Source of the DNA: Nitrospirales bacterium
GTDB lineage: Bacteria > Nitrospirota > Nitrospiria > Nitrospirales > UBA8639
DNA length: 37,915 nt
Assembly (NCBI GenBank): GCA_029261275.1
Contig: JAJDBR010000126.1
Coordinates: forward strand, 1-37,915
Direction: 5' to 3'
Both the position numbers and the translations under genes were made by a program. Position 1 is the first letter of the stretch. Each line of letters opens with the position of its first letter. The notes beneath the pieces were generated by a model. The model did no database searches. It was not told the DNA's origin and was given only the letters and a program-made list of their open reading frames with translations. Positions 6,238-36,741 of this stretch are shown piece after piece.

Positions 6238-6273
6238 TTAATCCTTTTATTTTATGGTTTCAATCTGTCTTTA

Positions 6274-9121: not shown

Positions 9122-9198
9122 ATTCAAAACAACTCCCTTAGCAAGGTATCAGAGTTCGATTGTGTAACTTAATGTGAAAACACTAAGCGAACCAATTG

Positions 9199-9228
9199 AT
9201 TGTACCATGCATTTTTGAGAACTGACAA
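9199..9228 (-). promoter_or_regulatory. Predicted sigma70-type promoter of ftsH
   Basis: On the minus strand a -35 box TTGTCA (9223-9228) is followed after 18 bp by a -10 box TACAAT (9199-9204). The start of ftsH lies about 75 bp downstream. It sits in the 137-bp gap between hpt and ftsH, so ftsH can be transcribed separately from the genes upstream. No CIRCE-like heat-shock operator was seen nearby. Called from sequence match only. Confidence 0.55.
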
Positions 9229-9258
9229 CCATCCAGGTCAGAGGACACTTCTTGAACC

Positions 9259-9786
9259 TTATTTAGAATCCATTTTCGCTAAGTAAGGAAGATTTCGATA
9301 CTTTTGCTCAAAATCCAATCCATACCCCACAATATAGAGAGGTGGCACTTCAAATCCAACATATTTAACCTTCATGGCCACCTCCCGATAAGCGGGTTTA
9401 TCCAATAAAGTACAGATCTCAATGGAGACCGGCTTGTGTTTATGTAATTGAGAGACTAAGAACTTGGCGGTAAGACCTGAATCAACGATGTCTTCCACCA
9501 ACAGCACATGTTGTTTAGCAATCTTTTCGGTTAACTCCGTCCATACTTTGACCATTTTTGGCGGGCGCCCAGCTTTTTTCGTTCCCGAGGCAATCAGAAA
9601 ATCCATTTGTATGGGTAATTGAATCACGCGAACCAAATCAGCAAAAAAGATACACGCTCCTTTTAAGACCCCGATCACGACTAAATCCTTTCCCTGATAG
9701 TCATGAGAAATTTGCTGACCCAGCTCACGGATACGGGTACGCATCGCCTCTTGCGTCACATAGGGTTTCCCAAATATTTTTGCCAT
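9259..9786 (-). CDS. hpt: Hypoxanthine phosphoribosyltransferase
   Basis: This type I phosphoribosyltransferase converts hypoxanthine (and usually guanine) plus PRPP to IMP or GMP in purine salvage. The 175-residue length fits bacterial HPRT. The PRPP-binding loop VLLVEDIVDSGLTAKFL (about 95-111) is clear. The flexible-loop region around residues 65-80 reads SGTKKAGRPPK, lacking the more usual SSYG form, so loop chemistry may differ slightly. The C-terminal YIVGYGLDFEQKYRNLPYL is characteristic of the family. It lies 12 bp downstream of tilS. The tilS-hpt-ftsH order is widespread in bacteria and supports the call. Confidence 0.95.
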   Translation of the reverse strand: MAKIFGKPYVTQEAMRTRIRELGQQISHDYQGKDLVVIGVLKGACIFFADLVRVIQLPIQMDFLIASGTKKAGRPPKMVKVWTELTEKIAKQHVLLVEDIVDSGLTAKFLVSQLHKHKPVSIEICTLLDKPAYREVAMKVKYVGFEVPPLYIVGYGLDFEQKYRNLPYLAKMDSK

Positions 9787-9798
9787 GCAATCCCCTAA

Positions 9799-11217: not shown

Positions 11218-12189
11218 TTACTGGTGTTCCTTATGGGCCATCACAAGATCCGAGTGGCTATCATTATATTTCGCTAAGATTTCTCTTGATTGAGTCCCAT
11301 CATGATTCATTTGCTTCAAGAGATCACCGACGCTAGAAAAGGCCATGTCTCCTCGCACCTGTTCAATAAACGACACTGAAATATCTTTACCATACAGTTG
11401 CAGCCTCTGATCAAAAACATGGACCTCTAAGAGACGTTCCCCTTCTTGAAAGGTTGGACGTTTGCCAATATAGGTGACAGATGGAAAACATTCGCGCTCT
11501 ATCTCTGTCAAAGTTGCATAGATCCCATCAGCAGGAAGCACACGATGAGGAGGAATCCGAAGATTGGCCGTTGGCCATCCCAATTGGCGCCCACGCTTTT
11601 CTCCCTCAATGACCGTGCTTGTTAACCGATAGGCCCGACCCAAGCATTCTCTCCCTTCCACAACATTACCGGTGGCCAAACATGTTCTAACTCGGGTGGA
11701 ACTCACGACCTCTCCGCCCAACATCACAGGTGCCACTGGTTGGACTTCAAAATTAGTCTGCCTCCCCAACCGCACAAGATCTTGAATGGTTCCACTGCGT
11801 CCTTTTCCGAACACAAAGTTTTCGCCAACCAACAATTGTCGAACCCCCAATCCCTCATGTAACACCTGTTGCACAAATTGATCTGGGGTCAGCGAAGCCA
11901 ACCCCTGGGTAAAGGGAAGGATAATGAGTTCGACGATCCCTTGCTGCTCAAAAAAGTCGCACTTTTCCTGAGCATCAGATAAAAATTTAGGAAGGGTACC
12001 TGGCCGCAACACTTCGATCGGATGGGGGTCGAAGGACAACACCATGGGAACACCTTTGAAGCGCTCAGCTTGTTTGATGACCGTTTTTATTAGGGCACGA
12101 TGACCGACATGCTGTCCATCGAAGTTACCTATGGTGAGAACAGGAAAAGCAGCAAGCGGAGTTGGCGGCAAACCTTTGGAAATATTCAT
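11218..12189 (-). CDS. ribF: Bifunctional riboflavin kinase / FAD synthetase
   Basis: RibF makes FMN from riboflavin and then FAD from FMN. The N-terminal nucleotidyltransferase domain (about 1-170) shows [16 protein letters not shown] near residue 21. The C-terminal flavokinase domain (about 180-305) shows [15 protein letters not shown] and the metal/substrate motif region around PADGIYATL. Length 323 is typical. The start overlaps the hemB stop by 4 bp and the end abuts tilS, so the three genes are almost certainly one transcript. No RFN riboswitch was seen upstream, which fits its internal position in the operon. Confidence 0.96.
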
Positions 12190-13169
12190 AGGACATGTTG
12201 CTTAAGAAACTGAGCCGCTTCCTTCGCAAAATAGGTGAGGATGAGATCGGCTCCAGCACGCTTAATGGAGACAAGACTTTCCATTATAACCGCTGGTTCA
12301 TCAATCCAGCCTTGCTGTGCAGCGGCTTTGATCATGCTGTATTCGCCACTCACCTGATAGGCCGCAACTGGGACTCTGGCTATCTCACGTACTTGCCTGA
12401 GAATATCCAAATAGAATAATGCGGGCTTTACCATCACGATATCGGCACCTTCCTCAAGATCTAACTCGACTTCTCGCAACGCTTCTCGAGCATTAGCCGC
12501 ATCCATCTGATACGAACGCCGATCACCGAAGGAAGGGCTAGAAACGGCGGCCTCACGAAAGGGAGCATAGAGGGAAGAGGCATATTTGGCGGAATAGGCC
12601 ATGATAGGCATTTCCGTATAGCCATGTTGGTCCAACGACTCTCGAATGGCTTTGATGCGTCCATCCATCATATCCGAGGGGGCCACCATATCCACACCTG
12701 CTTCAGCATGACTAAGTGCCATGGCCTGAAGACAATCTAAGGTTTCATCATTGATAATCCGACCGTCACGAACAATACCGCAATGCCCGTGCGACGTATA
12801 TTCATCAATGCACACATCCGTGATGACCATCAAATCAGGAAGCTTGGCTTTCAATGCTCGAACAGCTATTTGCACGACACCATTTTTTTCAAGAGCTGCA
12901 GATCCTCTTTCATCCTTCTGCTCAGGAATTCCAAAAAGAATAATTGCTGGAATCCCTAGTGCCCAAGCATTCGTAACCTCAGGGACAAGACGATCAACCG
13001 ACCAACGATATTGGCCCGGCATTGAAGCAATCGGTTCCTGCTTATTCTCTCCAAATGTGACAAACAAGGGATAAATCAAATCGGCGGGGGACAACAATGT
13101 CTCACGTACCATCCGTCTTAACGAGGCATGCTGACGGAGTCGCCGCATTCGGTGAAGAGGAAATCCCAT
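12186..13169 (-). CDS. hemB: Porphobilinogen synthase (delta-aminolevulinate dehydratase)
   Basis: HemB condenses two 5-aminolevulinate molecules into porphobilinogen. The 327-residue protein keeps both active-site lysines: Lys195 in YSAKYASS and Lys248 in [13 protein letters not shown]. The metal-site segment reads [13 protein letters not shown] (about 119-131). Cys120 and Cys130 of the zinc triad are present, but the middle position is Asp122 instead of Cys. This is an intermediate between the Cys-rich zinc type and the Asp-rich magnesium type. The start is ATG at 13169; a 117-bp gap separates it from the CBS gene. It completes, with hemA, hemC and hemD, the early tetrapyrrole pathway in this window apart from hemL. 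Confidence 0.97.
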
Positions 13170-19630: not shown

Positions 19631-21844
19631 ATGAACCATCTCCTTATCTGTCGGGAATATCCACCTATGCGGGCAGGAGGGATCGGGACCTATGCCCTGC
19701 ACATATCCCATTTGCTTGCCGACCATGGCGAAACCGTCCATGTTATCGGACAGCAATGTCGGGAGGCCCCTATTGAGCGTGAGGTCAAGTGCGACGGTAA
19801 GTTAACCATTCATCGGATCCCATTTGAGGATTGGAAGGCCGGCTCTGGCTTCCCCCCGCATCCCAACTTAGGCTCAGAGCAGGCTCGTGGCCTTTTTTCA
19901 TCAGAATTTCATCGCCAATGTTTTTCTTGGCAGGTCGCTCTCTTAACCGAAAGGCTCATTGAACAAGAAGGAATCGATATAATTGAAGCCGAGGAATATG
20001 AAGCTCCCCTGTATTATTTTCTCCTTCGGCGGGCCTTAGGTCTGGGGCCAAAACATCATCCTCCCTGTATCGTTCATCTCCATTCCTCTACTGAATTTGT
20101 CACGAAACATAACGGCAAGGACCTGTGGCGACCGTATATTTTAACCGCCAGGCGGTTGGAAGATTACTGTGTTGGAGCAGCCGATGCACTGTTATGTCCC
20201 AGTCACTATCTGGCTGCACAGGTAAAAGCTCGCCATGGGTTATCAAATCCAAGGGTCAAAGTTATTCCATATCCGCTCGGAGACATGCCGTTGGTCCCTA
20301 GGAACCAAGCTGTCTGGAAGAACGGTTCAATCTGTTACGTGGGAAGATTAGAACCACGTAAAGGCGTGATTGATTTAATCGATGCTGCAGTATTAGTGGC
20401 ACACGAGTATCCGACAGCAAAGTTTGAGTTTGTCGGACGGAATATGTTGGGTACACGCGAACAAAATGGTGAAGAAATTATTGCTCGACGAATCCCCAAG
20501 CAATTGAAAAAACAGTTTCATTTTTTTGGTGAGAAAAAACGATCAGATATGTTGACGTTTCTGGGACAAGCACGAATAGCCGTGATCCCATCAAGATGGG
20601 ATAATTTGCCCTATACGTGTCTGGAAGCGATGGGTTCTGGGTTGCCAGTCATTACTACATGCCAAGGTGGGATGGCGGAAGTGCTTGTGGATGGAGAAAG
20701 CGGATGGCTCATGAACGACCCGGGGAGTGAAGGCCTCGCACATGCCCTAAGGCGTGCACTTCAGACACCACCACCCAAACTTTGTGAAATGGGAAAGAAG
20801 GCTGCTGCCACTATTCGAAACACATGTGGCAATCAGGCTATTTTAGAAGTCCATTTAGAATTCTGTAAGCAGATTGTGTCAGATAAGGTATCCCGGTCAT
20901 CGCAACTTCCCCTGAATTTGCCTGACTCGAAAAGATCCCTTTCAGATAAGAATCGGGGTCCATTGGCTCAGAATGGCAAGGACGAAGATGTAGCAGTTGT
21001 TATTGTCGCCAATAATTGTCGAAATGATCTTTGTGAAAGTTTGGTGTCCCTTGAGAGACAAACACGCAAACCCAAGACCGTTCTTATTGTGGTGGATAGG
21101 GATGTTGGTGAACTCCCGATTGAAGCCCTAGCCTCATACCAAGGGTCCCCCTGGAAGATGCTGGATAAGAGGAATCTTGAGCCGGCCATAGCCAAAAATG
21201 CAGCAATCGATTGGATTTTAGGCCAGCCGGATACCCCGTTGGGCATAACATTTTTGCATGCGGGAGACGTGTTGGACGATGAGTGTCTTTCTGTATGTGA
21301 ATTGATTCTCCAGCGATGCAAAAATATTGGGATCGTTTCAGGTTGGACGCGCCAAATTGGGGACTATCCGAAGCTACGGATACGCCCTTGCCCCGCTTTC
21401 CCCTATCAGTGGGTATTAAATGATGTGGCCCCTCTTAGCATATTGAGAGTAGCGGCGCTTAGAGAGGCTGGACATTTTCGTCAGGAGTTAGGTAGGGGTT
21501 ATGCGGAATGGGATCTCGCCAACGCGGTGTTGGCGGCTGGCTGGATTGGTGTGAACGCGCCAATTATTCTTGGCACAGAAGCCATTAACACTGGATTACG
21601 AACAGCCAACACTCAATTGCCCACCAGAATGCATGAAGAAATTTTGGCCCGCTTCCCAGATCTTGTATCACGTGATGCCGAAGAACTTGCCCTCATAACC
21701 AGCTCCCACCTTGCTTCAATTTTGGACAATGCGGTGACGGATGGGAAATCAACTATTTTTTCACGGCTGCGAGGAAAAGGCCTTGGGGGTCATGTATCCC
21801 AACAAATTTTTGGTCTGGTAGAAAAGTTAAAGTCCTTCTTCTGA
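19631..21844 (+). CDS. Two-domain glycosyltransferase, GT4 fused to GT2-like
   Basis: The N-terminal part (about 1-420) is a GT-B fold GT4 enzyme. It shows REYPPMRAGGIGTYALHIS at the start, CYVGRLEPRKGVIDL near 237-251 and the donor-binding E-x7-E region CLEAMGSGLPVITTCQGG near 330. The C-terminal part (about 452-737) is a GT-A fold GT2-like domain, beginning VAVVIVANNCRNDL. It has a possible metal site HAGDVLDD near 541-548 and a later acidic motif GYAEWDLA. Such proteins add sugars to a lipid-linked glycan at the cytoplasmic face; donor and acceptor cannot be read. It is the first gene of the glycan locus, 206 bp after rsmI. No good ribosome binding site precedes the ATG. Confidence 0.88.
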   Translation: MNHLLICREYPPMRAGGIGTYALHISHLLADHGETVHVIGQQCREAPIEREVKCDGKLTIHRIPFEDWKAGSGFPPHPNLGSEQARGLFSSEFHRQCFSWQVALLTERLIEQEGIDIIEAEEYEAPLYYFLLRRALGLGPKHHPPCIVHLHSSTEFVTKHNGKDLWRPYILTARRLEDYCVGAADALLCPSHYLAAQVKARHGLSNPRVKVIPYPLGDMPLVPRNQAVWKNGSICYVGRLEPRKGVIDLIDAAVLVAHEYPTAKFEFVGRNMLGTREQNGEEIIARRIPKQLKKQFHFFGEKKRSDMLTFLGQARIAVIPSRWDNLPYTCLEAMGSGLPVITTCQGGMAEVLVDGESGWLMNDPGSEGLAHALRRALQTPPPKLCEMGKKAAATIRNTCGNQAILEVHLEFCKQIVSDKVSRSSQLPLNLPDSKRSLSDKNRGPLAQNGKDEDVAVVIVANNCRNDLCESLVSLERQTRKPKTVLIVVDRDVGELPIEALASYQGSPWKMLDKRNLEPAIAKNAAIDWILGQPDTPLGITFLHAGDVLDDECLSVCELILQRCKNIGIVSGWTRQIGDYPKLRIRPCPAFPYQWVLNDVAPLSILRVAALREAGHFRQELGRGYAEWDLANAVLAAGWIGVNAPIILGTEAINTGLRTANTQLPTRMHEEILARFPDLVSRDAEELALITSSHLASILDNAVTDGKSTIFSRLRGKGLGGHVSQQIFGLVEKLKSFF

Positions 21845-22220: not shown

Positions 22221-23450
22221 ATGAAGATTGCTCTTCTTTCATTTGAATATCCCACCGAAACCGGATTCGGTGGCATCGGAACCTACACGTGGCACCAGGC
22301 GCGCGGGTTGGTCAAGCTTGGTCATGACGTACACGTTCTAGCCGGGGCGCTTGCTCCGACTCAACTTCGCCTGCATGAGCATGATGGGGTAAAAATTTAT
22401 CGATTTCGTAGTGAGGGCGTCCTCATGCGACAATTCGAACGACTTGATAGATGGAAGCTTTGGTGGACCAAAAATCGTTTCCAAAATGCTGTCAGTATGT
22501 ACCTGGGATTGCAAAAACTTAGACGAAAACACCAGTACGATATTATTGAAATGCCGGAATGTGGGGCAGAGGGCGCTCTCATTAACCATTTGACAAAGGC
22601 CAATACCATCATCAAATTTCATTCCCCAAGTAAGTTTATTATGCCATTCTATGATGTGCAAAAAAAAGATATTAGCTTCTGCTCAATAACTGAGCAGCTA
22701 GGCATTCGAGGAGCCCAGTCGTATAGCTCGTGCTCGCAGTTCTTAGCTAAAGAAGTTCGTGAGAAACTTGGGGTACGGTCTCCCATTCAGGTTATTCCGA
22801 ATGGCATCGATGTGGAACTATTTGATGCAGCCAAGCAAGTAAACTTTCGCAAAAAATTTTCTCTTCCTCAGGATAAGGTGACCATTTTTTTCTCGGGTCG
22901 AATGGAACCTCGCAAGGGCATTCATCTTTGCAAAGAAATTGCCGCATCTATTCTTGAACGTTACGATGTGGCATTTGTATTTGTGGGGCAAGATCTCTTC
23001 AACTATATGTCAGACACGTTACTTCCCTCCCTCAAAACCAAGAATTTGAAGGGCTCGGTCCATTATTTGGGCAAATTAGATATGACCGAAATTCATTCTT
23101 GCCTATGCCAAGCTGATATTTTTTTACTCCCTAGTCTGTGGGAAAATTGCCCTTATTCTTGCCTGGAGGCCATGGCTGCTGGACGAGCAATTGTTAGTTG
23201 TGACCAAGGGGGAATGCCAGAACTCATCCAGAATGGTAAAAACGGATTGGTGGCCCAGACAGGGGACGCCAATTCCTTTGTGGCATGCTTAGAGCGTCTC
23301 ATTGAGGATCAACCCTTTCGAGAGCAGCTTGGACAGGCAGCTAGGAAATCCATCGAACAGTCCTACACAGACGTGCACATCGCCAGCCTTTCGACGGCTT
23401 TTTACCAAGAAAGCCTTGGAAAGGACAGATGGAAAATTATCGATGCCTAA
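22221..23450 (+). CDS. Glycosyltransferase family 4 protein
   Basis: A 409-residue GT-B fold glycosyltransferase. The N-terminus SFEYPTETGFGGIGTYTWHQ closely resembles that of the GT4 half of the protein at 19631, suggesting related enzymes. The acceptor-side domain spans about 1-190 and the nucleotide-sugar domain about 195-400. The latter shows FFSGRMEPRKGIHL (about 224-237) and the E-x7-E motif region CLEAMAAGRAIVSCDQGG near 313. It probably transfers a hexose to a growing cell-surface glycan; the donor is not predictable. Its last codons overlap the start of the next gene by 8 bp, so the two are co-translated. Confidence 0.92.
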   Translation: MKIALLSFEYPTETGFGGIGTYTWHQARGLVKLGHDVHVLAGALAPTQLRLHEHDGVKIYRFRSEGVLMRQFERLDRWKLWWTKNRFQNAVSMYLGLQKLRRKHQYDIIEMPECGAEGALINHLTKANTIIKFHSPSKFIMPFYDVQKKDISFCSITEQLGIRGAQSYSSCSQFLAKEVREKLGVRSPIQVIPNGIDVELFDAAKQVNFRKKFSLPQDKVTIFFSGRMEPRKGIHLCKEIAASILERYDVAFVFVGQDLFNYMSDTLLPSLKTKNLKGSVHYLGKLDMTEIHSCLCQADIFLLPSLWENCPYSCLEAMAAGRAIVSCDQGGMPELIQNGKNGLVAQTGDANSFVACLERLIEDQPFREQLGQAARKSIEQSYTDVHIASLSTAFYQESLGKDRWKIIDA

Positions 23451-25689: not shown

Positions 25690-26517
25690 ATGGTTGCACG
25701 CAAAGAGAAGTCTGTTTTGGAACAGCGTAAAGGAATTGGGAATTGGTTTGCTAAACGAACCCTTGAGTATGCCTGGGACTTGGTGTGTGAATTAGTCGTT
25801 CGAGATTTCAAGACCAAATATAAACGGTCTCTCTTGGGTGTGGCCTGGGCCCTCCTTGTCCCTCTGTCCATGCTGTTCGTATTTCAATTCGTCTTCAAAG
25901 TAGTGATGAATGTTGAAACGCCACGATTCAATTCCTTTGTTTTTACTGGCCTTCTCGTGTATTCATGGTTCTCCACATCTCTAGTTCAGTCGGCCAGTGC
26001 GATTACCGGTAATGCCAATCTTATCGTGCGGCCTGGATTTCCCGTTGGTGCCTTACCGATAGTGATGGTGACAATCAACCTGATCAACTTTCTTATCGCC
26101 CTTCCCGTGCTCCTTCTGTTTCTAGTTCTTGATGATATTGCTCTTAACGACACAATAGTATTTCTTCCTGTCCTGCTGCTGCCTCAATTTCTTTTGACTC
26201 TGAGCCTGGCTTATTTAGTGGCGACCATGAATGTGTTGTTCCGAGATACAACGCACCTACTGGGTATGGTACTAAGCCTGCTGATGTTCCTGTCGCCAAT
26301 TTTCTATGAGGCGCGGCGGGTTCCGGAAGAGTATTTACTGTTCTACAACCTAAATCCACTGGTACATTTGCTGGAGGCCTATCGCCTTCTTCTCCTGGGT
26401 GGGACCATACCTGATTTAGGACCATTGTCTGTTTTAGTAGGTCTCTCGATGGGTTTGTTGGCCCTCACCTATAAACTATTTAGCCGAATGAGTCACCGTT
26501 TTATTGAGGAGTTATAG
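25690..26517 (+). CDS. Polysaccharide ABC transporter permease (Wzm-like)
   Basis: A 275-residue ABC-2 type permease with six predicted membrane segments. Before the first helix it has the amphipathic family signature VVRDFKTKYKRSLLGVAWALL (from about residue 37). Later typical strings are RDTTHLLGMVLSLLMFLSPIFY and NPLVHLLEAYRLLLL. Wzm/KpsM-type permeases form the channel that moves lipid-linked O-antigen or capsule-like polysaccharide across the inner membrane. The gene has a GAGG ribosome binding site and its stop codon is directly followed by the ATG of the ATPase gene, so the two form an operon. Confidence 0.94.
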   Translation: MVARKEKSVLEQRKGIGNWFAKRTLEYAWDLVCELVVRDFKTKYKRSLLGVAWALLVPLSMLFVFQFVFKVVMNVETPRFNSFVFTGLLVYSWFSTSLVQSASAITGNANLIVRPGFPVGALPIVMVTINLINFLIALPVLLLFLVLDDIALNDTIVFLPVLLLPQFLLTLSLAYLVATMNVLFRDTTHLLGMVLSLLMFLSPIFYEARRVPEEYLLFYNLNPLVHLLEAYRLLLLGGTIPDLGPLSVLVGLSMGLLALTYKLFSRMSHRFIEEL

Positions 26518-27762
26518 ATGCACGATGCTATTATTGTGGAACACCTTGGAAAGAAATTCCGCCGGTATCAAACGACTCAGGCTAATACTTTCAAGGGGGC
26601 CTTAGCAGATAGGGGATGGAGAAAGCGGGAGGAACCATTTTGGGCTCTTCGGAATGTCACATTCCGTATTGCCGCGGGAAAAGCACTTGGGATTATAGGA
26701 CGAAATGGAATGGGTAAGTCTACCTTACTTCGACTTCTTGGGGGAGTGGGGAAGCCTGATGAAGGAAAGATTGAGTTGAGTTCGTCTCGGATTGGGGCTC
26801 TCTTGGACCTGGGGTTTGGGTTTCATCCGGATATGACCGGACGGGAATCGGTGTTTTTTACGGGAGTGATTTCTGGCCAGACGCGTCAGGAAGTGGGGAG
26901 GCAGTTTGAATCTATCGTCGAATTTGCTGATATAGGTGAGTTCATCGATGCTCCCACCCGTACCTATAGCAGTGGCATGAAAATGCGCTTGGCCTTTGCC
27001 GTTGCCGTGCATATAGATCCTGATATTCTCCTGATCGATGAAATTTTGTCAGTCGGGGATAACACATTTACGGGAAAGTGTCTCGAACGGATTCACAGAT
27101 TCAAGGCACAGGGTGTCACTATTGTGATCGTTTCCCATTCGATGGATCCTATCTTGTATCTTTGCGATGAAGCAATTTTGCTGGACAAAGGTCACGTGGT
27201 AGCGCATGGCGATCCGAATTCTGTGGTAGAGCAATATGCAGCAATGGAACCGAAAGAAACACGGCGCCGAACCCCTGTGGCGGCGGCTGGGACCATTACC
27301 TCATCAGGAATTGAGCTCCAACCTAATATCAATCGCTTTGGCACGTTTGAGATGGAAGTCCGTTCCGTGCGGGTGCTTGATAGGCAAGGAAACCCTATCA
27401 ATGAAATCCAGAGTGGTGATGGTCTACGTTTTGAGATTGGCTATGAAGCCCATCAACAAATCGATTCTCCTATATTTTGTGTCATCATCACTCATGAAAA
27501 TGGGACCGTCTATCATTGTACGAGAACTGCAGGCGCAGGCCTTGACTTGTCGAAAGTCGAAGGGAGGGGACAGATAACCCTAGAGTATGATCGTCTCGAA
27601 TTTGCCCAGGGCCTTTATTATTTAGATGTGAGTATTTATGAGAAGGGATGGGGGTACAAATATGACTTTCATGTGCATGCCTATTCGTTTCGCATTCATG
27701 CTAGTTCTGAAGAACTCGGGATTATTCGTCCTCCACATCGATGGGCAATGAGTAATAGTTAA
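26518..27762 (+). CDS. Polysaccharide ABC transporter ATPase with Wzt-type C-terminal domain
   Basis: A 414-residue ATPase. The N-terminal nucleotide-binding domain (about 1-245) has Walker A GIIGRNGMGKSTLL near 58-71, signature TYSSGMKMRLAFA, Walker B DILLIDEILSVGD and the switch His in VIVSHS. The C-terminal beta-sandwich (about 275-405) matches the Wzt_C type that recognises the modified non-reducing end of an O-polysaccharide before export. Its presence means export here is probably coupled to a specific terminal modification. Candidates for that step among the neighbours are the SGNH hydrolase, the radical SAM protein and the PhyH-like hydroxylase. The start abuts the permease stop. Confidence 0.94.
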   Translation: MHDAIIVEHLGKKFRRYQTTQANTFKGALADRGWRKREEPFWALRNVTFRIAAGKALGIIGRNGMGKSTLLRLLGGVGKPDEGKIELSSSRIGALLDLGFGFHPDMTGRESVFFTGVISGQTRQEVGRQFESIVEFADIGEFIDAPTRTYSSGMKMRLAFAVAVHIDPDILLIDEILSVGDNTFTGKCLERIHRFKAQGVTIVIVSHSMDPILYLCDEAILLDKGHVVAHGDPNSVVEQYAAMEPKETRRRTPVAAAGTITSSGIELQPNINRFGTFEMEVRSVRVLDRQGNPINEIQSGDGLRFEIGYEAHQQIDSPIFCVIITHENGTVYHCTRTAGAGLDLSKVEGRGQITLEYDRLEFAQGLYYLDVSIYEKGWGYKYDFHVHAYSFRIHASSEELGIIRPPHRWAMSNS

Positions 27763-27891: not shown

Positions 27892-29454
27892 CTATTGAAA
27901 GGTTGCCGTGGAGTCAAACGCTGGGAGCAAGCGTACTTTCTCTCCTAGACATTGCGCCGAGGCTTGCCAAATTTGCGGATCGAGGTTGCATATTCGCATC
28001 AGCATCTCACTCAACATTCGCGCGGCTAACTCCCCGCCAATCTGCTCAACGATGCGGGATGCCTCGTCGGCGATTTTTTTAGGGGTTTCGAAGGGCTTGA
28101 GTCCAGGACGAGGCGCAGCTAACCAGCCGTCAGTTGCCACATTCCTATTTCTGATCTCCGGTTGCCAATCTGGACCCCGTTGACACAACTCGGTCTCGCA
28201 GAGGCTGATCAAGAATTCAAATCGGGCTCGGTTGAAAAAACTATCTTGATAGTCAGCATTGAGCACACCTAGCTGGCTGCGAAAAAAGTCCAGTACATAC
28301 TCTAGTTGCATCGATGGGAGAGTGTAGAGGGTCACATTGTGCGGGTGAATACAGGTATTGATGTGTAGGTATAGGCGGTGTTGTTCTGCAAAACGAAAGA
28401 TTTCCGGCAATTCAAACCAATTCCTTCGGTGTTCTGTCACATTGAGCATAACAGTGACTCCGCGGCGCTCGCGCAATTCTAGAAAGTACGCCATATTCTT
28501 CATGAACAATTGGTTATCCAAGCCTACTCGGATATCGGCGTGAAGCTCGTCGCTGACTGCGTCCATGGAGACGGCGATGGTCTTCATGTTCAATTCCTCT
28601 AGGAATTTTCGCGCACGCGAAGTAACCGATACACCATTGGTATTGATATAGATCGTGCACTTAGACTGGGTTTCCCTAATGATGTCAAAAATCTTAACGT
28701 GATCTTGCACCAAGAAGGGTTCGCCGCCATAAAACTCTAAGTGATCGGTATGTGGAATAATCTCCCGCATATCTTTGAAGAAGTTGGGGCCATAACAAGA
28801 AGGTGGGTTGGGAAGTTTGTCACGTTCCTTGCGGATACGGGAAGAGGTGAGGCCGTCGCACATGACGCAATCCAAATTGCATGCATTATGCAGGCGAAAG
28901 ATTAGTCGTTTTGGATAAGATGGGTGGCGGTCATCGTGAGCCCATTTGTCGAACTGTTCGGTCGCAAAGACGTTGCTGCCAGAATCTCCTCGCATCTGCC
29001 GCACACAGTGCGTACAGTTTTGATCATCCAGGCAATAGTTGGAGAAATCCTTTCGGTATCTTTCGTAGGCAGGGCCACGCCAGATTTCCAGAACTGAGCG
29101 TTCGGCCGTCACCTTTTCCAATGGCCGGTGGGAGTGGTTGCACAGGCTGATCGCGCCAGTGGCGTCGAAATCCATGCTCAAAAACGGAGCGTAACACACA
29201 GCTCGAAGCTGGCGGTTGCCAAGATGCGGCCGAGCCGAATCATATTCATGGATGGATCGAGGCAGAGTCTCCCCGGCTTTCGTGGTCAGATATATAAGCC
29301 CAGTATTGGATTTTTTTTCTTCTTTGATCTTTGTAGCTGTTGTAGGCAAACTGTGCCCATTGTTGACGCGCTTCACGGTGTCCGATTCGCTCCGGCTTCC
29401 CAAGAGGTACCGTTTGATTCGAATTAGAAGTGAACGATTAGAGTATTTGGTCAT
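27892..29454 (-). CDS. Radical SAM protein with N-terminal SPASM/twitch domain
   Basis: A 520-residue protein counted from ATG 29454, chosen because AGAGAG lies about 10 nt upstream; a TTG two codons earlier is possible. Residues about 85-155 form a SPASM/twitch-like module: Cys87 (VCYAPFLSMDF), Cys105 (ISLCNHS), then SVLEIWRGPAYERYRKDF and Cys147-x2-Cys150. The radical SAM core follows (about 180-370) with the cluster motif HNACNLDCVMCD (Cys192, Cys196, Cys199) and the SAM-binding FYGGEPFL near 242. Placing the auxiliary-cluster domain before the core matches twitch-domain radical SAM proteins and is the reverse of peptide-maturase SPASM enzymes. The C-terminal 150 residues are unassigned. 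Placed next to a glycan exporter, it may oxidise or epimerise a sugar; the substrate is unknown. Confidence 0.88.
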   Translation of the reverse strand: MTKYSNRSLLIRIKRYLLGSRSESDTVKRVNNGHSLPTTATKIKEEKKSNTGLIYLTTKAGETLPRSIHEYDSARPHLGNRQLRAVCYAPFLSMDFDATGAISLCNHSHRPLEKVTAERSVLEIWRGPAYERYRKDFSNYCLDDQNCTHCVRQMRGDSGSNVFATEQFDKWAHDDRHPSYPKRLIFRLHNACNLDCVMCDGLTSSRIRKERDKLPNPPSCYGPNFFKDMREIIPHTDHLEFYGGEPFLVQDHVKIFDIIRETQSKCTIYINTNGVSVTSRARKFLEELNMKTIAVSMDAVSDELHADIRVGLDNQLFMKNMAYFLELRERRGVTVMLNVTEHRRNWFELPEIFRFAEQHRLYLHINTCIHPHNVTLYTLPSMQLEYVLDFFRSQLGVLNADYQDSFFNRARFEFLISLCETELCQRGPDWQPEIRNRNVATDGWLAAPRPGLKPFETPKKIADEASRIVEQIGGELAARMLSEMLMRICNLDPQIWQASAQCLGEKVRLLPAFDSTATFQ

Positions 29455-30423
29455 CTTCAAATTCTCTCTAATGATCCTACCGCGATGATCGGCCGCATGG
29501 TTCGCTTTACTTGAATCACCATGTTGTCCAGGTCATCCCATTCATCGTTCTGGCTCAGCTTCTCTATACTGATTGGGGATTTCTCCGTTGAAATAGATTT
29601 TTAGATGCCAGATGTATGGTCCCGTATGGCCTAGCCTTTGCATTGAGCACTCACAATAAATGTAGCTCCTCCGCGCCTTTGGAAATCTCGCTCAGGTCCC
29701 TGCATTGTCCTTGCTAAGAATTTGAAAACGGTTGAAATTAGTACCAGTTGCTATGATTTACAAGTTTTACCGAGGCCGCAAAAGTCTTTCAAATAACCGA
29801 TGCCCTTGATGGCTTTCTGCATAGAAAATCACGTCGATATGGTTCGACTTAATTTCAGATCAAATGGGCATTGCACTTAAGTTGGGGCAGATTGCGAAGT
29901 CCCCCATAATTGGAATTAGGTCCAGGGATAGTAAGGAGTATTCACCATGACAACGTTTTGGGTTAGGGTCAACCTTTTTTTAAAATGGGGAATCCAAGTC
30001 ATGATACTATCAACGTTAAGCCGTGTTAGCACAAAATTATGTATTCTGGGAATTTTCAACAATTGCTTGAAGGCCAACTCCTCCGAAAACGATTGGGGGA
30101 GCAGGAGAAGAGCCATCAAGGATCGGTGCACGAATCTGCATGTTGCCCGTCAGTCTTGGCGAATGACAGATGGGGGTATTGCAAGGGAATCCACAAAGGG
30201 TTGAAGATTCTGAAAACAACCGTGTGCGCAAACATGGCGCAGAATCATTTCAGGAGCCTGTCCGAGTTTAGCCATCGTTGCGGGGAGATGCTAGCTTGAT
30301 TCAGATTTTTCGATCGCTTGAATGGAATCGTGAGTCTGTTTAATAAAAAGGGTCGGAAAATATTTGGAAATACTGGCAACCAGAATAGATTCATCTAATA
30401 TCGGACCCTCTCCTAGTGGACAA
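29455..30423. other. Long intergenic region, no confident gene
   Basis: Almost 1 kb between the divergent radical SAM gene and the giant glycosyltransferase gene. Stops are frequent in all frames. The only reading frame with a good ribosome binding site is at 29947 (listed separately). No tRNA, CRISPR or clear riboswitch was seen. Its patchy look suggests decayed mobile or coding DNA. Confidence 0.5.
29947..30204 (+). CDS. Small hypothetical ORF of doubtful status
   Basis: An 85-residue frame starting with ATG and preceded by AAGGAG 8 nt upstream. The first 45 residues are fairly hydrophobic (MTTFWVRVNLFLKWGIQVMI); the rest is basic and polar. I recognise no family. It lies in the long gap where other frames are also open for short stretches, so it may be chance or a fragment. 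Only the ribosome binding site supports it. Confidence 0.22.
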   Translation: MTTFWVRVNLFLKWGIQVMILSTLSRVSTKLCILGIFNNCLKANSSENDWGSRRRAIKDRCTNLHVARQSWRMTDGGIARESTKG

Positions 30424-30610: not shown

Positions 30611-33600
30611 ATGAGTATGACACCACAACCTGACCATATTTTAATCATATTTGAGGACTCACCAAATGTTCCTCTTTCACGAGAAAACTATGACAATCAG
30701 CGTAGTGTAGATTACTCAGGCCAATCTGTATGTCATGCCCCGTTTGTATCTTTAGAACTACGTGCTTCGGGCACCGTGGCTCCCTGCCGTTTTTCCGCAA
30801 TGAATCTAGGCCGCATTCAGGAGCATTCGCTTGAGACCATTTGGACCAGTCAGGCTTTCCTGCAGTTACGTCAGCGGTTCCAAGATTACCGCATTCGTCA
30901 CAAAGAATGTGAGGCATGCGTGGGATCTTGGCTAGATGGAATACCCAGCGAAAGCCATGCCGTCGTTGAGTTTGACCAATTTCTTATGCCGAAAGATTCT
31001 GCGACTCCTCCACGAAAGGTAAGTTTGGACCTTCGTGCTCCAAATCTAGAGTCTGTCTGCCAAACCTTAACTCATTGGCTGCCCAATCTCGATTGCATAG
31101 ACATAACCACCCCCTGGCCCCCACCCGAGCCATATTTTCGAATGTTATTCGATCAAGTAATGGACTTGCCAAATGAGACCTGCCCTAAGGTTCTAATTCG
31201 GACTGAAAACGTGATACCCAACCCGGAGGATATTTGGAGGGGGGTTGCTTTAGTAGAACTCGGTTTTTCTATGGATAGTGAAGATCTTTCTTGGGAAGAA
31301 GAGAAAGCTCTTGAGGCGCTCGCCCAGGCCCTCAAAGAACAGAGAATCGACCTAAACCTTGTCGTTCTAGTGCATAATGCTAACTGGATGCATCTTCGGA
31401 CTTGGCTCGAGCGCATCAGTAAGCTAGGGGTCGTGATGGTACCACAACTCCTTCCCTCAACCCATCTAGGATCCTTGGCTCATTGTGATGGGGATAACCT
31501 CAGCTGCCTTCACGGTATTTTTCTTCAGTGGTTGAAGCAATGTTCTGCCCATTCTACCCAGGAACGGGCCATGGGACTTCAAAAAGCGTTTTTGGCTCAA
31601 ATTCGTCGCTGGCAGCGATCCCCGGCGGCACAGATTCTTCCCAGAACCCCCTTTGTCCTTCCCAGAGTCGAGCATTCAGTGGTTCAACACGAGGCGACAT
31701 TCGAATGCCTGATCGAGAGCATGTTACGAATTTACGCTAATCCTACCATTGAATCTTGGTTCATGGAAATCACACAGTCCAAGGGTTTTATCGAGAATGC
31801 GAGGAAACGCCGTTCCCTACGTCTAATTGTTTTTTGGCTTGCCTGTGTTTTTAATCGACCAGAGGCGCTTTCTTTACTATTAGAAATTTTCGGGAGCCCG
31901 GAAGAAGCGAGGCGTAAGGTGGAAGAGGATCGCCAATGTCTTGCTGGGACTTCCTGGGAGAGTTGGTTTAGATCTTGGACGGAACAAGTAGGTCTGCATG
32001 ACCTGAAATTGCGGCAGCAGTATTTCCAGATCGGAACGATCCAACCAATGGAGGATAACAAGCCCCCGTGCGTAACGATCATCATCTCCTCCCACAACCA
32101 CCAAACATTTCTTCAAAATACGGTTCTCAGCGTTTTAGGACAGACGAGAACGGATTTTAATTTGTGGGTGGTAGACGATGCCTCGGGAGATGATTCAGTA
32201 CAAGCTCTTGAAAGCATTAAAGACCGGCGACTCAAGATTATTCAAAATACACAGAATCTGGGGCTTGGACTGTCATTAGCACGTGTGCTAGAGAAGGTTG
32301 ATACCACTTATGTTGCGCTCCTTGACGGCGATGACCTGTTTCACCCGAGACGACTAGAAGCATGCCTGGCCGTCTTAGATAAAAATCCTCAATGTGATCT
32401 CGTCGCCACAGGTGTCGTGCCCGTAGATGCGAGGGGAAAAATCTATTCTGTGGGTGATTCCTCCCCCATTTTTGATGGCCGAGCAATCTGTGATTGGCTT
32501 CGCTGGTACCATCAATATCGGGTTCCATCGGAGGCTACTTCTTCCGGCCTCCTGGGCGCCCTCCTTGAGGGTAATTTCCTCATAACAACATCTAACACGG
32601 TAGCTCGAGCCGATTTTCTTCGAAAGCAGCTACCGCACTGGGAGAATCTGGAATTCTGTATAGACTGGCAACTATTTTTGGCCGCCGCGTTATCAGAAAA
32701 ATTGTACTATCTTCCTGAGGGTCTTTTAGGAAATAGGTTACATCAGGCCAACGTTCGATGGTGGACGGATGAACGAAAATGGCGATTTTATCTAGAATCT
32801 AACCAGGTAGTCGCCCGCATTCTCGATTGGCTGTTCCAGCGTGGAGAGGCCATGGAAATCGGAGGAGTTTCTGCAGTCCTCAGTGCCATGGCGAATCACT
32901 TGAATTCAAACACAACCGTGGACTGGCCGGGAGTGTTTCTTGGGGTTTTAATGGAGCGTCATAAGGTAGGTCCTCGTGACCTGGCAAGAGAGACGGTGTC
33001 TCAGCCCCTTCAAACTCTCATGACTAACCAGGAAAAATATCTTCAAGCTAAGTTTTGGATTCAGGACTTTGGAGGTAACGTTCCTGACCTCTATCGAATG
33101 CGCGGAGAGCGACCCTTTCTTCGATTTGTTCGAAATGCTCATGAAGTCCTTGAAGTCCATCATAAACGAATCCAAGGTATGTACTATAGCCTACTTTCCA
33201 AACGGGCAAGAGAAAGGATGGGAAAGCAACAACGCCTTCGTGTCTTTCTTGGTCGTGTTCGGCGGAAGGGCCAGCAGATCGGGATCACTCTGCAAAACCG
33301 CCTGAGCATTCTACAATTGACCGCCGAACGGCATTGGCAAGATTCGGTCGGCAATCGTCGTTACCGTGCATTGGCAACGGTGTGTTGGGATTTCCCCATC
33401 TACTCCCAAACGTTTGTCTATCAGGAGCTGACTCAACTCGCAAATCAGGGATTCAATTTGCGACTTATTTATTCCAACTTAGATTCGAGGAAGTATCTTC
33501 ATCCACAATTCGAACAACTTTGGAAAATCAAACGGCGGCTTATTTTGCGACGTGATATTCACGAGCAGGACTTTTCCCTATACAACACCCAGATGCCGGA

Positions 33601-34621
33601 AAAAGTCCAGGCTTTGATTCGGGTACTCTGTGAGACATCCGGCCTTTCAGCATCCGACTTGATTCGACGAGGAAATTTCCTAGAAGCCTTTTCGTTTACA
33701 AGAATGGTCGAGGCGTATCGACCGCACTACATTCACTCCTATTTTTTTTATGACCGATCGTTCATGGCCCTTGTTGCCAGCTACCTTCTTGATATTCCAC
33801 GTGGCATAAGTTGTTATGCCGATCATCTTCTGAAGGATTATGAATTCAAGTTGGTTCCACTGCATATGCAACTCTGTTCTATAGTTATTGCCACCTCTAA
33901 GCGAATCAAGACAGAACTACTCACTCTTGCTCCCAATACAGACCCTGAGCGTATCCTGGTAAAACCTAATGCCATCAATTCAAGCTGGTTTCCTTTTCAT
34001 CAACGAACTGATCCCGAGGGGAACATACCGTTTCGGCTGATATGCGTCAGTCGCATAGAGCCAAAAAAAGGCTTGCTTTACCTCATTGAGGCCGTCCACG
34101 AGTTACACCAACGTGGGTGGACCGTGGAATGTCATCTTATAGGTGAGGCGGACAACAGGATCGAGGCTAGCCAATTGTATAAAGCCAAAATCGATGCACG
34201 CCTTACAGAGCTAGACCTCTGGAGTAAGGTGCACATGGAAGGATTTCAGAATGAAGAGGGAGTCAAACAATTCCTAAATAAGGGGCATTTATTTGTGGCC
34301 CCGTTTGTCCAGACTGAGACTGGAGACCAAGATGGCATTCCGACAGCTTTATTGGAAGCAATGGCCACGGGGCTCCCAGTCGTTGTCACAGACTCAGGGT
34401 CGATTCCCGAAGTTGTGGATGAAGGCAAAAATGGAGTATTCGTGCCACAACGGAATTCTGTTGCTTTAGCAAACGCCATTGAATCGCTTATTCGTGATAC
34501 AGATCGTCGCCATCGATATGGGCAAGCAGCTGCGGAAAAAGTACGCCACTGTTTTGATGTGGCCCTCTGTGAGAAAAAGTTTCATGAACGCGTACAAGCT
34601 ATTATTGAAGGGCGTCGTTAA
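30611..34621 (+). CDS. Multidomain protein: SPASM module, cluster-less radical SAM-like region, GT2 and WcaL-like GT4
   Basis: A 1336-residue protein. Residues about 38-108 are a SPASM module with Cys41 (VCHAPFVSLEL), Cys59 (VAPCRFS), HSLETIWTSQAFLQLRQRF, and Cys100-x2-Cys103. Residues about 135-290 follow the strand order of the neighbouring radical SAM core but lack CxxxCxxC, so SAM cleavage is not expected. Residues 290-485 are helical and unassigned. A GT2 domain (about 487-720) starts VTIIISSHNHQTFLQNTVLS and has the metal motif LLDGDD (Asp572, Asp574, Asp575). After another helical stretch, a WcaL-like GT4 (about 916-1330) shows FPIYSQTFVYQELTQL, CVSRIEPKKGLLYLIEA and GIPTALLEAMATGLPVVV. 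It probably adds two sugars to a surface glycan; the N-terminal half may bind a modified sugar, a lipid carrier or the radical SAM partner. Confidence 0.85.
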   Translation: MSMTPQPDHILIIFEDSPNVPLSRENYDNQRSVDYSGQSVCHAPFVSLELRASGTVAPCRFSAMNLGRIQEHSLETIWTSQAFLQLRQRFQDYRIRHKECEACVGSWLDGIPSESHAVVEFDQFLMPKDSATPPRKVSLDLRAPNLESVCQTLTHWLPNLDCIDITTPWPPPEPYFRMLFDQVMDLPNETCPKVLIRTENVIPNPEDIWRGVALVELGFSMDSEDLSWEEEKALEALAQALKEQRIDLNLVVLVHNANWMHLRTWLERISKLGVVMVPQLLPSTHLGSLAHCDGDNLSCLHGIFLQWLKQCSAHSTQERAMGLQKAFLAQIRRWQRSPAAQILPRTPFVLPRVEHSVVQHEATFECLIESMLRIYANPTIESWFMEITQSKGFIENARKRRSLRLIVFWLACVFNRPEALSLLLEIFGSPEEARRKVEEDRQCLAGTSWESWFRSWTEQVGLHDLKLRQQYFQIGTIQPMEDNKPPCVTIIISSHNHQTFLQNTVLSVLGQTRTDFNLWVVDDASGDDSVQALESIKDRRLKIIQNTQNLGLGLSLARVLEKVDTTYVALLDGDDLFHPRRLEACLAVLDKNPQCDLVATGVVPVDARGKIYSVGDSSPIFDGRAICDWLRWYHQYRVPSEATSSGLLGALLEGNFLITTSNTVARADFLRKQLPHWENLEFCIDWQLFLAAALSEKLYYLPEGLLGNRLHQANVRWWTDERKWRFYLESNQVVARILDWLFQRGEAMEIGGVSAVLSAMANHLNSNTTVDWPGVFLGVLMERHKVGPRDLARETVSQPLQTLMTNQEKYLQAKFWIQDFGGNVPDLYRMRGERPFLRFVRNAHEVLEVHHKRIQGMYYSLLSKRARERMGKQQRLRVFLGRVRRKGQQIGITLQNRLSILQLTAERHWQDSVGNRRYRALATVCWDFPIYSQTFVYQELTQLANQGFNLRLIYSNLDSRKYLHPQFEQLWKIKRRLILRRDIHEQDFSLYNTQMPEKVQALIRVLCETSGLSASDLIRRGNFLEAFSFTRMVEAYRPHYIHSYFFYDRSFMALVASYLLDIPRGISCYADHLLKDYEFKLVPLHMQLCSIVIATSKRIKTELLTLAPNTDPERILVKPNAINSSWFPFHQRTDPEGNIPFRLICVSRIEPKKGLLYLIEAVHELHQRGWTVECHLIGEADNRIEASQLYKAKIDARLTELDLWSKVHMEGFQNEEGVKQFLNKGHLFVAPFVQTETGDQDGIPTALLEAMATGLPVVVTDSGSIPEVVDEGKNGVFVPQRNSVALANAIESLIRDTDRRHRYGQAAAEKVRHCFDVALCEKKFHERVQAIIEGRR

Positions 34622-35496
34622 GTATAGGAGAAACAATTCCAATGTGACATAATGATGTTTGACATTGACCAATCCAGAAAAGAAGCTGCTGTTTTAGACT
34701 TCTTGGAATAGGAATATTAAAAGGCTCTATTGAGCAACAAAAAAGTTCCAAAGAGCCCTTTGAAGGTCAATCTCCCGACTGCTCTGACATTACCAGGGCC
34801 TGTGGTTTATGTAGCGTAGGTAGATGGCTTTCGCAAAAATGTGCTCTAAGCCTTGGGGCAATTGATCGTCATTCAATCAAGATTTGATAGAAATACCATC
34901 ACCGATCAATTCGACAACGATTGAAGCTCCCCGCTTAAGCTCTTTGGAAGGTAAGGCAATTGAATTAGGCTATTCAAAGGTATACAATATTTCTGTTCCC
35001 GTATACATTTGTCGAGCAGCTATCCTGAGGATTCAACATATGCTGGGTAGATCAGGATCGATTGAACTGTCGCCTGGAGTCGAAGTACATTTAAATTGGA
35101 TAAAAACTCCAGAATAAGATGCTCTTAGCGCCAATGGAGGTAGCCTGCGTGTTACTTAGGATAGGATTAAATCGAAGATATAATGGTGGTCCTAAGGTGA
35201 TGGGCCTGATGGGCCTTCAAACCTGGAAATAAAACGGGGTGGATCGAGTTGTTATGTTTGGCGACGGAATGGAATGGTAGAGATAGTTGGCTATGCGGCC
35301 CAGATTGGTACGCAAAATAAAGTTGGTGGAAATTTTTGATTTCGCTACAATTTCCGTCGAAGTCAATTTGTTACCATCAGTGAACCGCAGGTTCGATTGT
35401 TCTCCATCGATAATGATAATTCGTACAAGCAGATTACAACCTCCGTAGGTAACAATGGGTATATTATATAATTTACCCACTTAACAGGAGTTGCTA
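34622..35496. other. Intergenic region with fragments, upstream of the hydroxylase gene
   Basis: About 870 bp with no confident gene. An imperfect inverted repeat (GGCTCT near 34725 and AGAGCC near 34755, long loop) follows the giant gene but has no T-run, so it is a poor terminator. A TATAAT sequence lies about 25 bp upstream of the hydroxylase start, without a convincing -35. One doubtful frame at 34884 is listed separately. Short open stretches on both strands (for example minus 35217-35480) look like chance or decay. Confidence 0.45.
34884..35117 (+). CDS. Small hypothetical ORF, start uncertain
   Basis: A 77-residue frame from a TTG, without a visible ribosome binding site. The composition looks protein-like: an N-terminal polar stretch, then GKAIELGYSKVYNISVPVYI and a short C-terminal part. 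No ATG exists upstream before a stop at about 34864. No family recognised. It may be the remains of a longer gene. Confidence 0.22.
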   Translation: MIEIPSPINSTTIEAPRLSSLEGKAIELGYSKVYNISVPVYICRAAILRIQHMLGRSGSIELSPGVEVHLNWIKTPE

Positions 35497-36741
35497 TTGT
35501 CCATTTTCAATCACCCCGAAAAACCCCCGCAAGTCCACCATTTCCTGCCCAATCCTGCTAATAGCAATTCGGCAATGGTCCGCATCGATTTTCATTTAAA
35601 AATTCCCGCGTTCTCTAATGAAACAGAGGATGCGAAATTGCGTATTCATGCGGTTGATACAGATCTGTCAACTGTGTCCGTTCCCTTGCATATTGATGCG
35701 CAAGAATTGAAATTTTGGATTGTAGTCAATTCTCATTATTTACCAAACGGAAAAAATTCTATTCAATTTGAGATGCATGACGATCAGGGCGAATCATTTT
35801 ATACGGGAAAGGTTGAGCTAAACATCCAAAACTCTGGATCCCTTGCCCAAGCAGTTGCAGCTAGCTTAAAAGAGCACAATACCCCGTGGGCTTTCAACGG
35901 GGTATGTGACGCAAGGGACTTCGATTATTCTAACCGATCGTTGTTTCCCTGGTTCAATCTTGAGAATGCGAGTCTTCACCTGGATGAACAATTTGATCAA
36001 GACAAAATAAATCACGAGGAACGAGAAAGTCTACAATATTTCGTTGAACACGGTTATATCATTCTCCCACATCCAATCGAAGATTCGCTTCTTGAAAGTA
36101 TAGACAAAGACTTGGACCAAGCGGTGGCAGAGGGCTATCAAGGCTATGAATACGGCTCAAGTCAACGCTTGGAAGGACTTCACCAACGTAGCGATGCAAT
36201 CCGGAGCCTCTGGACTCATCCTATGATTATTCACTATCTGAGCCTTATTTTTGGGGTTCCTGTGCGGCCCTGCCAAACGTTAACTTACATTTTTGGAAGT
36301 CAGCAAGATTATCATCAGGATACTGTTCATTTGACGCCATTCCCCGCAGGTTATATGTGCGGAGTCTGGGTGGCGATTGAAGATGTCAAGCCCGGTTCTG
36401 GAGAGCTCAGTGTTGTGCCTGGCAGTCATCGATTTCCAGCTATCTACAACCACACGGTTGACTGCGCAAAGATGGAAAATGGAGACTTTTCAGAATTCGG
36501 GATCAAGGTGGTGGGACGATGGCAAGAAATGCTAGAAGAATCAAAACTCGAAGAAGTTCCCTATATAGCCAAGCGCGGACAAGTGCTAATTTGGCATGAA
36601 AATCTTCTACATTGTGGCAAACCGAGAACTGAACACTCTCAATCAAGAAGGTCTATCGTAAGTCACTACTTTGCAGACGGCGCCATTGCCTACTACGACT
36701 CCACGGGATTACCTGGCGTTTTATCTGATCGTGTACAATGA
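35497..36741 (+). CDS. Phytanoyl-CoA dioxygenase (PhyH)-like Fe(II)/2-oxoglutarate oxygenase
   Basis: I place the start at TTG 35497, because AGGAG lies 6 nt upstream; a TTG at 35491 touches the AGGAG and is less likely. Of 414 residues, about 1-115 look like a beta-sandwich accessory domain. The C-terminal part (about 170-410) is a PhyH-type jelly roll. Iron ligands are His273-x-Asp275 in DYHQDTVHL and a distal His near 372 in NLLHCGKP. A basic pair near 384 in QSRRSIVSH should bind 2-oxoglutarate. The strings GVWVAIEDVKPGSGELSVVP and GSHRF are typical. The family hydroxylates small molecules, lipids or sugars. In this locus a glycan or glycolipid substrate is inferred only from position. 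All metal ligands are present, so it should be active. Confidence 0.87.
   Translation: MSIFNHPEKPPQVHHFLPNPANSNSAMVRIDFHLKIPAFSNETEDAKLRIHAVDTDLSTVSVPLHIDAQELKFWIVVNSHYLPNGKNSIQFEMHDDQGESFYTGKVELNIQNSGSLAQAVAASLKEHNTPWAFNGVCDARDFDYSNRSLFPWFNLENASLHLDEQFDQDKINHEERESLQYFVEHGYIILPHPIEDSLLESIDKDLDQAVAEGYQGYEYGSSQRLEGLHQRSDAIRSLWTHPMIIHYLSLIFGVPVRPCQTLTYIFGSQQDYHQDTVHLTPFPAGYMCGVWVAIEDVKPGSGELSVVPGSHRFPAIYNHTVDCAKMENGDFSEFGIKVVGRWQEMLEESKLEEVPYIAKRGQVLIWHENLLHCGKPRTEHSQSRRSIVSHYFADGAIAYYDSTGLPGVLSDRVQ

Follow-up and report, generated by a model that had tools for sequence, protein, structure and literature searches.

A GT2–GT4 glycosyltransferase fusion with a predicted former radical SAM module in a Nitrospirales polysaccharide locus

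Contig JAJDBR010000126.1 of a Nitrospirales bacterium (GenBank assembly GCA_029261275.1) contains a gene whose product appears to join the front of a radical S-adenosylmethionine (SAM) enzyme to two glycosyltransferases, which raises the question of what such a module is doing in a glycosyltransferase. The window analysed is the whole stretch of 37,915 nucleotides (positions 1 to 37,915, forward strand), and the gene is an uninterrupted frame of 1336 codons at 30611..34621 on the forward strand. From the N-terminus, the 1336-residue fusion protein comprises a twitch/SPASM domain, a pseudo-radical-SAM barrel, a helical linker, a GT2 domain and a GT4 domain. The likely explanation is a bifunctional GT2 and GT4 enzyme of a surface-polysaccharide export locus that carries a retired N-twitch radical SAM enzyme as a non-catalytic platform.

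Domain organization of the fusion protein

The twitch/SPASM domain spans residues 41-103 (30731..30919; all features of the fusion lie on the forward strand) and is recognized by Pfam as PF13186 with E 2e-10, above the cut-off. It contains Cys41, Cys59, Cys100 and Cys103 (codons 30731-30733, 30785-30787, 30908-30910 and 30917-30919), the four cysteines that an earlier note made from the sequence alone had assigned to a SPASM module. The partial barrel that follows at residues ~134-280 (31010..31450) is supported by hhalign comparison with 18 intact radical SAM cores and by the strands of AlphaFold2 models, and includes a tryptophan, Trp259 (31385-31387), that is invariant in the family. A helical linker at residues 378-480 (31742..32050) is conserved together with the GT2 domain, as judged by BLASTP against a homologue from a Planctomycetota metagenome-assembled genome (MAG; G421); its residues W383, R404 and L423 are invariant across 23 members.

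The GT2 domain extends from residue 489 to ~780 (32075..32950). Pfam PF00535 covers residues 489-594 (E 4e-23, 82.7 bits against a cut-off of 23.3), and BLASTP similarity reaches residue 782. The GT4 domain occupies residues ~915-1332 (33353..34606), with PF00534 at 1142-1309 (E 3e-31, 109 bits against a cut-off of 26.4) and 40-57% identity to six homologues. Both glycosyltransferases that the note had placed behind the N-terminal module are therefore present. The acidic DxD-type motif of the GT2 domain is DGDD at residue 572 in the window protein and NSDD in the other six sequences of a seven-member alignment, and the GT4 domain carries a C-terminal Glu motif (DGIPTALLE at 1241). Given these motifs, the fusion would be expected to catalyze glycosyl transfer. 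The description of the GT4 part as WcaL-like is fair, as TIGR04005 matches with E 2e-28, though far below the family cut-off; EpsE NF041876 is the better match (E 7e-42), also below its cut-off.

The divergent neighbour of the fusion gene (27892..29460, reverse strand; hereafter 27892) encodes an intact N-twitch radical SAM protein of 522 residues, in which Pfam finds an N-terminal SPASM domain and an intact Radical_SAM core. Its nearest family is NF033640, the N-twitch radical SAM proteins (E 1e-42, 146.6 bits, below the cut-off of 170). BLASTP aligns residues 10-154 of the fusion with this paralogue (E 3e-12), a region that covers the SPASM domain and the first strand and runs into an eroded loop.

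Profile comparison of the barrel with radical SAM cores

The segment behind the SPASM domain has no Pfam radical SAM match up to E 10. Residues 126-312, which exclude the SPASM domain, were compared profile to profile using hhalign. A 24-member barrel profile scored 62.4 against the 18 intact N-twitch radical SAM cores (probability 96.2%, P 2.2e-9, 146 columns), while the best of 200 column shuffles of the same profile reached 19.5. Omission of the window protein left a score of 59.8 for the remaining 23 members (P 6.4e-9). A smaller comparison, 7 members against 12 cores, scored 37.9 (P 3.5e-5), a value attained in 0 of 300 column shuffles, the maximum of which was 19.5. Control proteins and domains from the window, 16 in all and including three TIM barrels, scored 17.2 or less against the 24-member profile. 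When the 18 intact cores were used as single sequences, those of the 27892 type (Wr, L112 and L130; L and G numbers denote loci and genomes) scored best, at 38.7, 55.1 and 48.4; six of the 18 scored 17.9 or less against the family profile, no better than the controls. Judged by these profile comparisons, the barrel is homologous to radical SAM cores, which supports the pseudo-radical-SAM core proposed in the note.

Several results pull the other way. The intact cores were picked for CxxxCxxC followed by GGE or GGD, which is a selection in itself. The window barrel alone scored 22.1 (P 0.01) against the 12 cores and a GT2 control 21.0. Without the window protein, the seven-member profile dropped to 24.7 over 40 columns, and four close members reached 31.1 over 49 columns. 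Searching PDB sequences with the seven-member profile, at a limit of E 1, brought up no chain of a radical SAM protein. Profile positions 321-393 match human MGMT/SNAP-tag chains with E down to 6.5e-5, probably by chance.

The strand-by-strand correspondence with 27892 that the note had drawn holds in part. The pair RKVSLDL/KRLIFRL agrees with BLASTP, which places a one-residue gap after it, and FSMD/VSMD is exact in the 24-member profile comparison. For PKVLIRT/CTIYINT, the realigned comparison gives the exact register and the unrealigned one is offset by two residues, and the strand pair with the NW motif needs a shift of two.

Conserved cysteines and loss of the SAM-binding motifs

The N-terminal alignment comprised 25 sequences, the 7 full members and 18 further ones. 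L196, whose contig ends before the N-terminus, was left out of the 24-member profile, and both L192 and L196 were left out of the 23-member invariance count. All four twitch cysteines are found in 23 of the 25 members, which are all 23 that have the twitch region; the two others are L196, cut by its contig end, and L192, which has no twitch region. Among window residues 1-377, only C41, C59, C100, C103 and W259 are invariant in the 23 members, and Trp259 is present in all 25. The surrounding sequence has diverged to the point that residues 121-377 show 10-26% identity to the window protein in six homologues. Within residues 104-377, the best cysteine column outside the twitch set holds 15 of the 25 members, and none of the seven remaining N-terminal cysteines of the window protein is shared by any of the six further full members. 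On this alignment, the four cysteines and Trp259 are under selection. The column of window residue 269 has a cysteine in 15 of the 25 family members and none in the window protein.

The motif CxxxCxxC, which the note had reported missing from the window fusion, is indeed absent from it and occurs in 0 of the 24 members that cover the loop (all but L196), other cysteine spacings not having been pattern-searched. The loop reads C-N-L-D-C-V-M-C in the 27892 paralogue and P-N-L-E-S-V-gap-C in the fusion. Its third cysteine survives as C150 in the window protein and is absent from all six others in the seven-member alignment. The GGE motif is likewise lost: where intact cores have their GGEP strand, the window protein has TTPWPPPEP. 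The invariant Trp259 falls on an NW motif present in many of the intact cores. Because the SAM-binding [4Fe-4S] site and GGE are gone, no SAM cleavage is expected from the fusion. The term "cluster-less" used in the note is apt for the SAM-binding cluster and misses the auxiliary site, whose cysteines are the best-conserved part of the region; since the four twitch cysteines are kept, the term describes the SAM site alone.

In PMC9012708, a twitch domain is described as having one auxiliary cluster, a [4Fe-4S] cluster that is held by four cysteines in BtrN and by three in MoaA. The four twitch cysteines of the fusion probably hold an auxiliary [4Fe-4S] cluster as well. Against the platform reading as a whole stand the detection of SPASM by Pfam in just 2 of 7 members (E 0.01) and L192, in which the missing twitch domain must be dispensable. 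The four cysteines could also bind zinc. An account in which they hold zinc or another structural metal, with the N-terminus acting merely as a folding module, is possible though not favored: it would accommodate both the invariance of the four cysteines beside a next-best column of 15 of 25 and the divergence of residues 121-377, yet the cysteines coincide with the SPASM profile and with the four twitch cysteines of the intact 27892 paralogue.

Predicted fold

AlphaFold2 without an alignment yielded a poor model (mean predicted local distance difference test, pLDDT, of 45.5), in which strands and helices alternate over residues 136-277, with four strands of at least three residues and two shorter ones. 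This alternation agrees with the partial barrel expected from the note, less firmly than does the profile comparison; neither of the two outcomes that the note had named as refuting its idea, a fold other than a partial barrel and the lack of a significant profile match, came about. When nine intact radical SAM rows were supplied for residues 120-380, the barrel was modeled with pLDDT ~75 and a predicted template-modeling score (pTM) of 0.53, and six strands appeared in order with helices between them.

Foldseek searches of the PDB with the unaligned model placed chains of the radical SAM protein EpeE at the top probabilities, up to 0.99, among the 50 matches listed, most of which were TIM barrels. 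With the nine-row model, BlsE was returned at probability 1.00 and EpeE at 0.99, among many other TIM barrels. On the opposite side of the balance, the nine-row model is biased to the radical SAM fold by its rows, an O-GlcNAcase chain equals BlsE at probability 1.00 over 82 columns in the search with that model, and neither the unaligned nor the nine-row model gave a Foldseek match at E 0.001 or better. The fold searches agree with the profile test; not being significant alone, they could not carry the homology by themselves.

Family members and their distribution

A first scan of genome contigs gave no match. A scan with an N-twitch alignment led to five genome loci, one of which, in the Planctomycetota MAG G421, encodes a protein 55% identical to 27892. 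Querying this MAG with fusion residues 1-480 led to an open frame of 1767 codons, whose product aligns with the fusion by BLASTP at 40% identity in two segments, residues 378-782 and 864-1332. Its first 377 residues are equal in length to those of the fusion and too diverged for BLAST, and its residue 378 aligns with residue 378 of the fusion. A two-row profile then matched at least 16 of 343 Planctomycetota genomes, at least 6 of them with the fusion architecture; the remaining genomes gave short twitch-region matches in shorter frames, of which the one in G559 was read. With a seven-row profile, at least 31 of 154 genomes of the class of G421 matched, and in at least 29 the match extends into the start of GT2. 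Of the 31, 20 loci were read, two of which repeat earlier members. Up to 4 candidates per genome were scored in the 343- and 395-genome draws, up to 8 in the 188-genome draw, up to 10 in the 154-genome class and all in the 14-genome order of G544; because only some first-look candidates were scored in the larger draws, the presence counts are lower bounds and the absences are soft. The search for other chains that join SPASM to GT2 and GT4, as the note had suggested, thus found a family which, outside the window, is mainly one of Planctomycetota among the groups searched. An artefact of gene prediction or assembly confined to the window is rejected, since at least 33 other genomes (6 + 27) have matches that extend into GT2.

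The order N-terminus, GT2, GT4 holds in all seven full open reading frames by alignment, with Pfam run on two; the presence of GT4 was checked in these seven. In the six Planctomycetota members, GT2 and GT4 are separated by a long, charged and repeat-rich stretch, which we read as a coiled coil and which the window protein lacks. In a tree of the GT2 region (22 of the 25 rows; L179, L192 and L195 were left out, as the cutting motif was not found), the window protein stands beside L152 (99/94). The window protein has a very long branch and an odd composition, and its placement is therefore not relied on.

In the organism's own phylum, a search of 97 relatives and 395 genomes with residues 1-480 listed no match past residue 120 outside its own genome, where there are two, the fusion and its paralogue, the latter matching to residue 154. 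In Myxococcota, the phylum of a Polyangiaceae MAG, 5 of 188 genomes gave matches, all of them short and spanning no more than 114 profile positions. A plasmid search gave one match, at residues 41-111, to a SPASM-annotated protein. No radical SAM–glycosyltransferase fusion with an intact core, which would be a missing link, was seen among the frames read. One candidate, a 1210-residue frame in G590, was rejected; by eye, it is an intact N-twitch radical SAM protein with a tetratricopeptide repeat (TPR)-like C-terminus behind an unrelated stretch.

Role of the module and alternative explanations

If the fusion is, as we favor, a glycosyltransferase with a retired radical SAM platform, its first 377 residues would be a former N-twitch radical SAM enzyme that has lost the SAM-binding [4Fe-4S] site and GGE, with a twitch domain that retains the four cysteines expected to hold an auxiliary cluster in its relatives. 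The platform may recognize the acceptor, stabilize the protein, or render the transferase responsive to iron or redox state. We think a structural or recognition use more likely than redox sensing; residues 121-377 diverge fast while the metal site next to them stays constant, a pattern that would fit a recognition surface carried on an unchanging scaffold. More speculatively, the orphaned auxiliary [4Fe-4S] cluster on the dead barrel might sense redox state or iron, or dock a live N-twitch partner, and so couple polysaccharide assembly to Fe-S chemistry, a proposal that we regard as tentative.

A partnership in a stricter sense would pair the pseudo-module, as an inactive half, with an intact N-twitch radical SAM protein, of which 27892 is an example. 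The module would dock the radical enzyme, and a sugar or acceptor would undergo radical modification before its transfer. In the window, the fusion gene and 27892 are divergently oriented neighbours, and the family profile fits 27892-type cores best. Of the 343 Planctomycetota genomes, 6 have the fusion, 6 have a 27892-like protein (E 1e-12) and 5 have both (hypergeometric 9e-10); within the order of G544, with 14 genomes, the identical 4 carry both (1e-3). However, these P values are too small because the related genomes are not independent, and at most 4 candidates per genome were scored for the fusion and radical SAM counts. At E 1e-12, no partner accompanies the fusion in G479, and in G441 a 27892-like protein occurs without the fusion. 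In each of the five Planctomycetota genomes that carry both, the two are on separate contigs, and no 27892-like gene is found in the flanks of the fusion loci examined. Outside G421, the radical SAM proteins are just 29-34% identical to 27892, and both radical SAM genes of G421 lie among metabolic genes. Given the relatedness of the genomes, the low identity and the separate contigs, such a partnership is held to be unlikely.

Some further radical SAM genes were noted in passing. N-twitch radical SAM-like genes are clustered in twos to fours in L070 (4298-7937), L100 (~7670-12944) and L114 (~2537-8160), two of these clusters being on contigs classed as viral. In G421, one 27892-type gene has an FGE-sulfatase (formylglycine-generating enzyme-like) gene nearby, and a small open reading frame separates the two (L130, 5834-9144). 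By eye, 27892-like proteins in L172 and L174 have a TPR-like C-terminal part, and radical SAM frames of 843-891 residues in L042, L045 and L046, from relatives of the window genome, have a C-terminal half of the arsenite-methyltransferase type.

An N-terminus that is a decaying relic without function would account for its fast divergence and for L192, which lacks the twitch part, but precisely these four cysteines and Trp259 are invariant in 23 divergent members and residue 378 still aligns with residue 378 of the G421 homologue, and this account is improbable. A chance likeness of a generic β/α domain at residues 130-300 is least probable of all: weak single-sequence matches and the many other TIM barrels returned by Foldseek speak for it, but it is largely refuted by the 24-member profile score (P 2e-9), the shuffles and the TIM-barrel controls, which do not match, and the barrel directly follows an N-twitch domain, just as the core does in intact relatives.

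The polysaccharide locus

Up to ~19.4 kb, the window encodes mostly housekeeping functions by Pfam domain (ComEC-like, phosphoglucomutase, pterin-binding, FtsH, TilS, RibF, haem genes and cytochrome c assembly), with an aldo/keto reductase at its left end. From 19.6 kb there follow two GT4 proteins, a carbohydrate-binding module (CBM) protein with a weak GDSL match, Wzm, Wzt, the radical SAM protein, the fusion and a PhyH dioxygenase. The first GT4 protein has a weak GT2-like part (19631..21844), the second (22221..23450; GT4_22221) is a conserved partner gene, the Wzm/Wzt-type polysaccharide ATP-binding cassette (ABC) exporter lies at 25690..27762 (Pfam ABC2_membrane, ABC_tran and Wzt_C), and the PhyH-family dioxygenase gene is downstream of the fusion at 35491..36741, all on the forward strand. 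The GC content of 43-48% in this cluster, against 45-51% to its left, marks off no island. The locus looks acquired, since the sampled genomes of its own phylum contain no full counterpart of the fusion or of the radical SAM protein; for 27892, none was found at E 1e-12 in 295 genomes.

In L150-L153, the gene directly upstream of the fusion encodes a protein with 60-63% identity to GT4_22221; in L149, a gene with 50% identity lies ~1.5 kb downstream of the fusion on the other strand. A counterpart is thus near the fusion in 5 of 6 Planctomycetota loci; L129, which starts near the fusion start, has none that close. The match of GT4_22221 to TIGR04157 is weak, at 65.8 bits where the cut-off is 400. 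Other neighbours of the fusion are a GT2, a further GT4, a sulfatase and an ABC exporter in L151, and a directly upstream GT4, a GT2 and a sulfatase in L152. The sulfatase-family genes (L151, 9745-11463; L152, 13863-16784) hint at a sulfated or otherwise decorated glycan.

Relation to known systems and significance

Bifunctional GT2-GT4 polysaccharide glycosyltransferases are a known class. The fusion shares with them both catalytic folds with the usual motifs on one chain in an export locus, and differs from them, as from EpsE and WcaL, in the ex-radical-SAM module in front and in scoring below the named-family cut-offs. In the glycosyltransferase/radical SAM cassettes of Bacteroidetes (TIGR04157), the two activities are encoded by separate genes; they are linked likewise in the fusion, but in one chain and with a dead core. 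Like NF033640 proteins, the fusion has an N-terminal twitch domain followed by a (β/α) core, and it matches positions 2-79 of the 398 of that family with E 2e-8; unlike them, it lacks CxxxCxxC and GGE in the core, has GT2 and GT4 fused behind, and scores 33.5 bits against the cut-off of 170. BtrN, MoaA, EpeE and BlsE also combine an auxiliary-cluster domain with a partial barrel, EpeE and BlsE being the top radical SAM structures in Foldseek, with E-values that are not significant; in the fusion the twitch domain is N-terminal and there is no SAM cluster. A literature search by title and abstract, with most subscription journals outside it, recognized no description of this architecture. The parts are of known kinds; an ex-radical-SAM module that keeps its auxiliary site in front of GT2-GT4 appears to be new.

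PMC9012708 notes that direct evidence on the role of twitch/SPASM auxiliary clusters was long elusive. The present family seemingly removes the SAM cluster and keeps the auxiliary site throughout, which makes the role of this site without SAM chemistry directly testable. So far as the search extended, the fusion would also be an undescribed case both of a polysaccharide glycosyltransferase with a probable Fe-S domain and of a pseudoenzyme within the radical SAM superfamily. In this family, an old radical enzyme has apparently been reused for another job.

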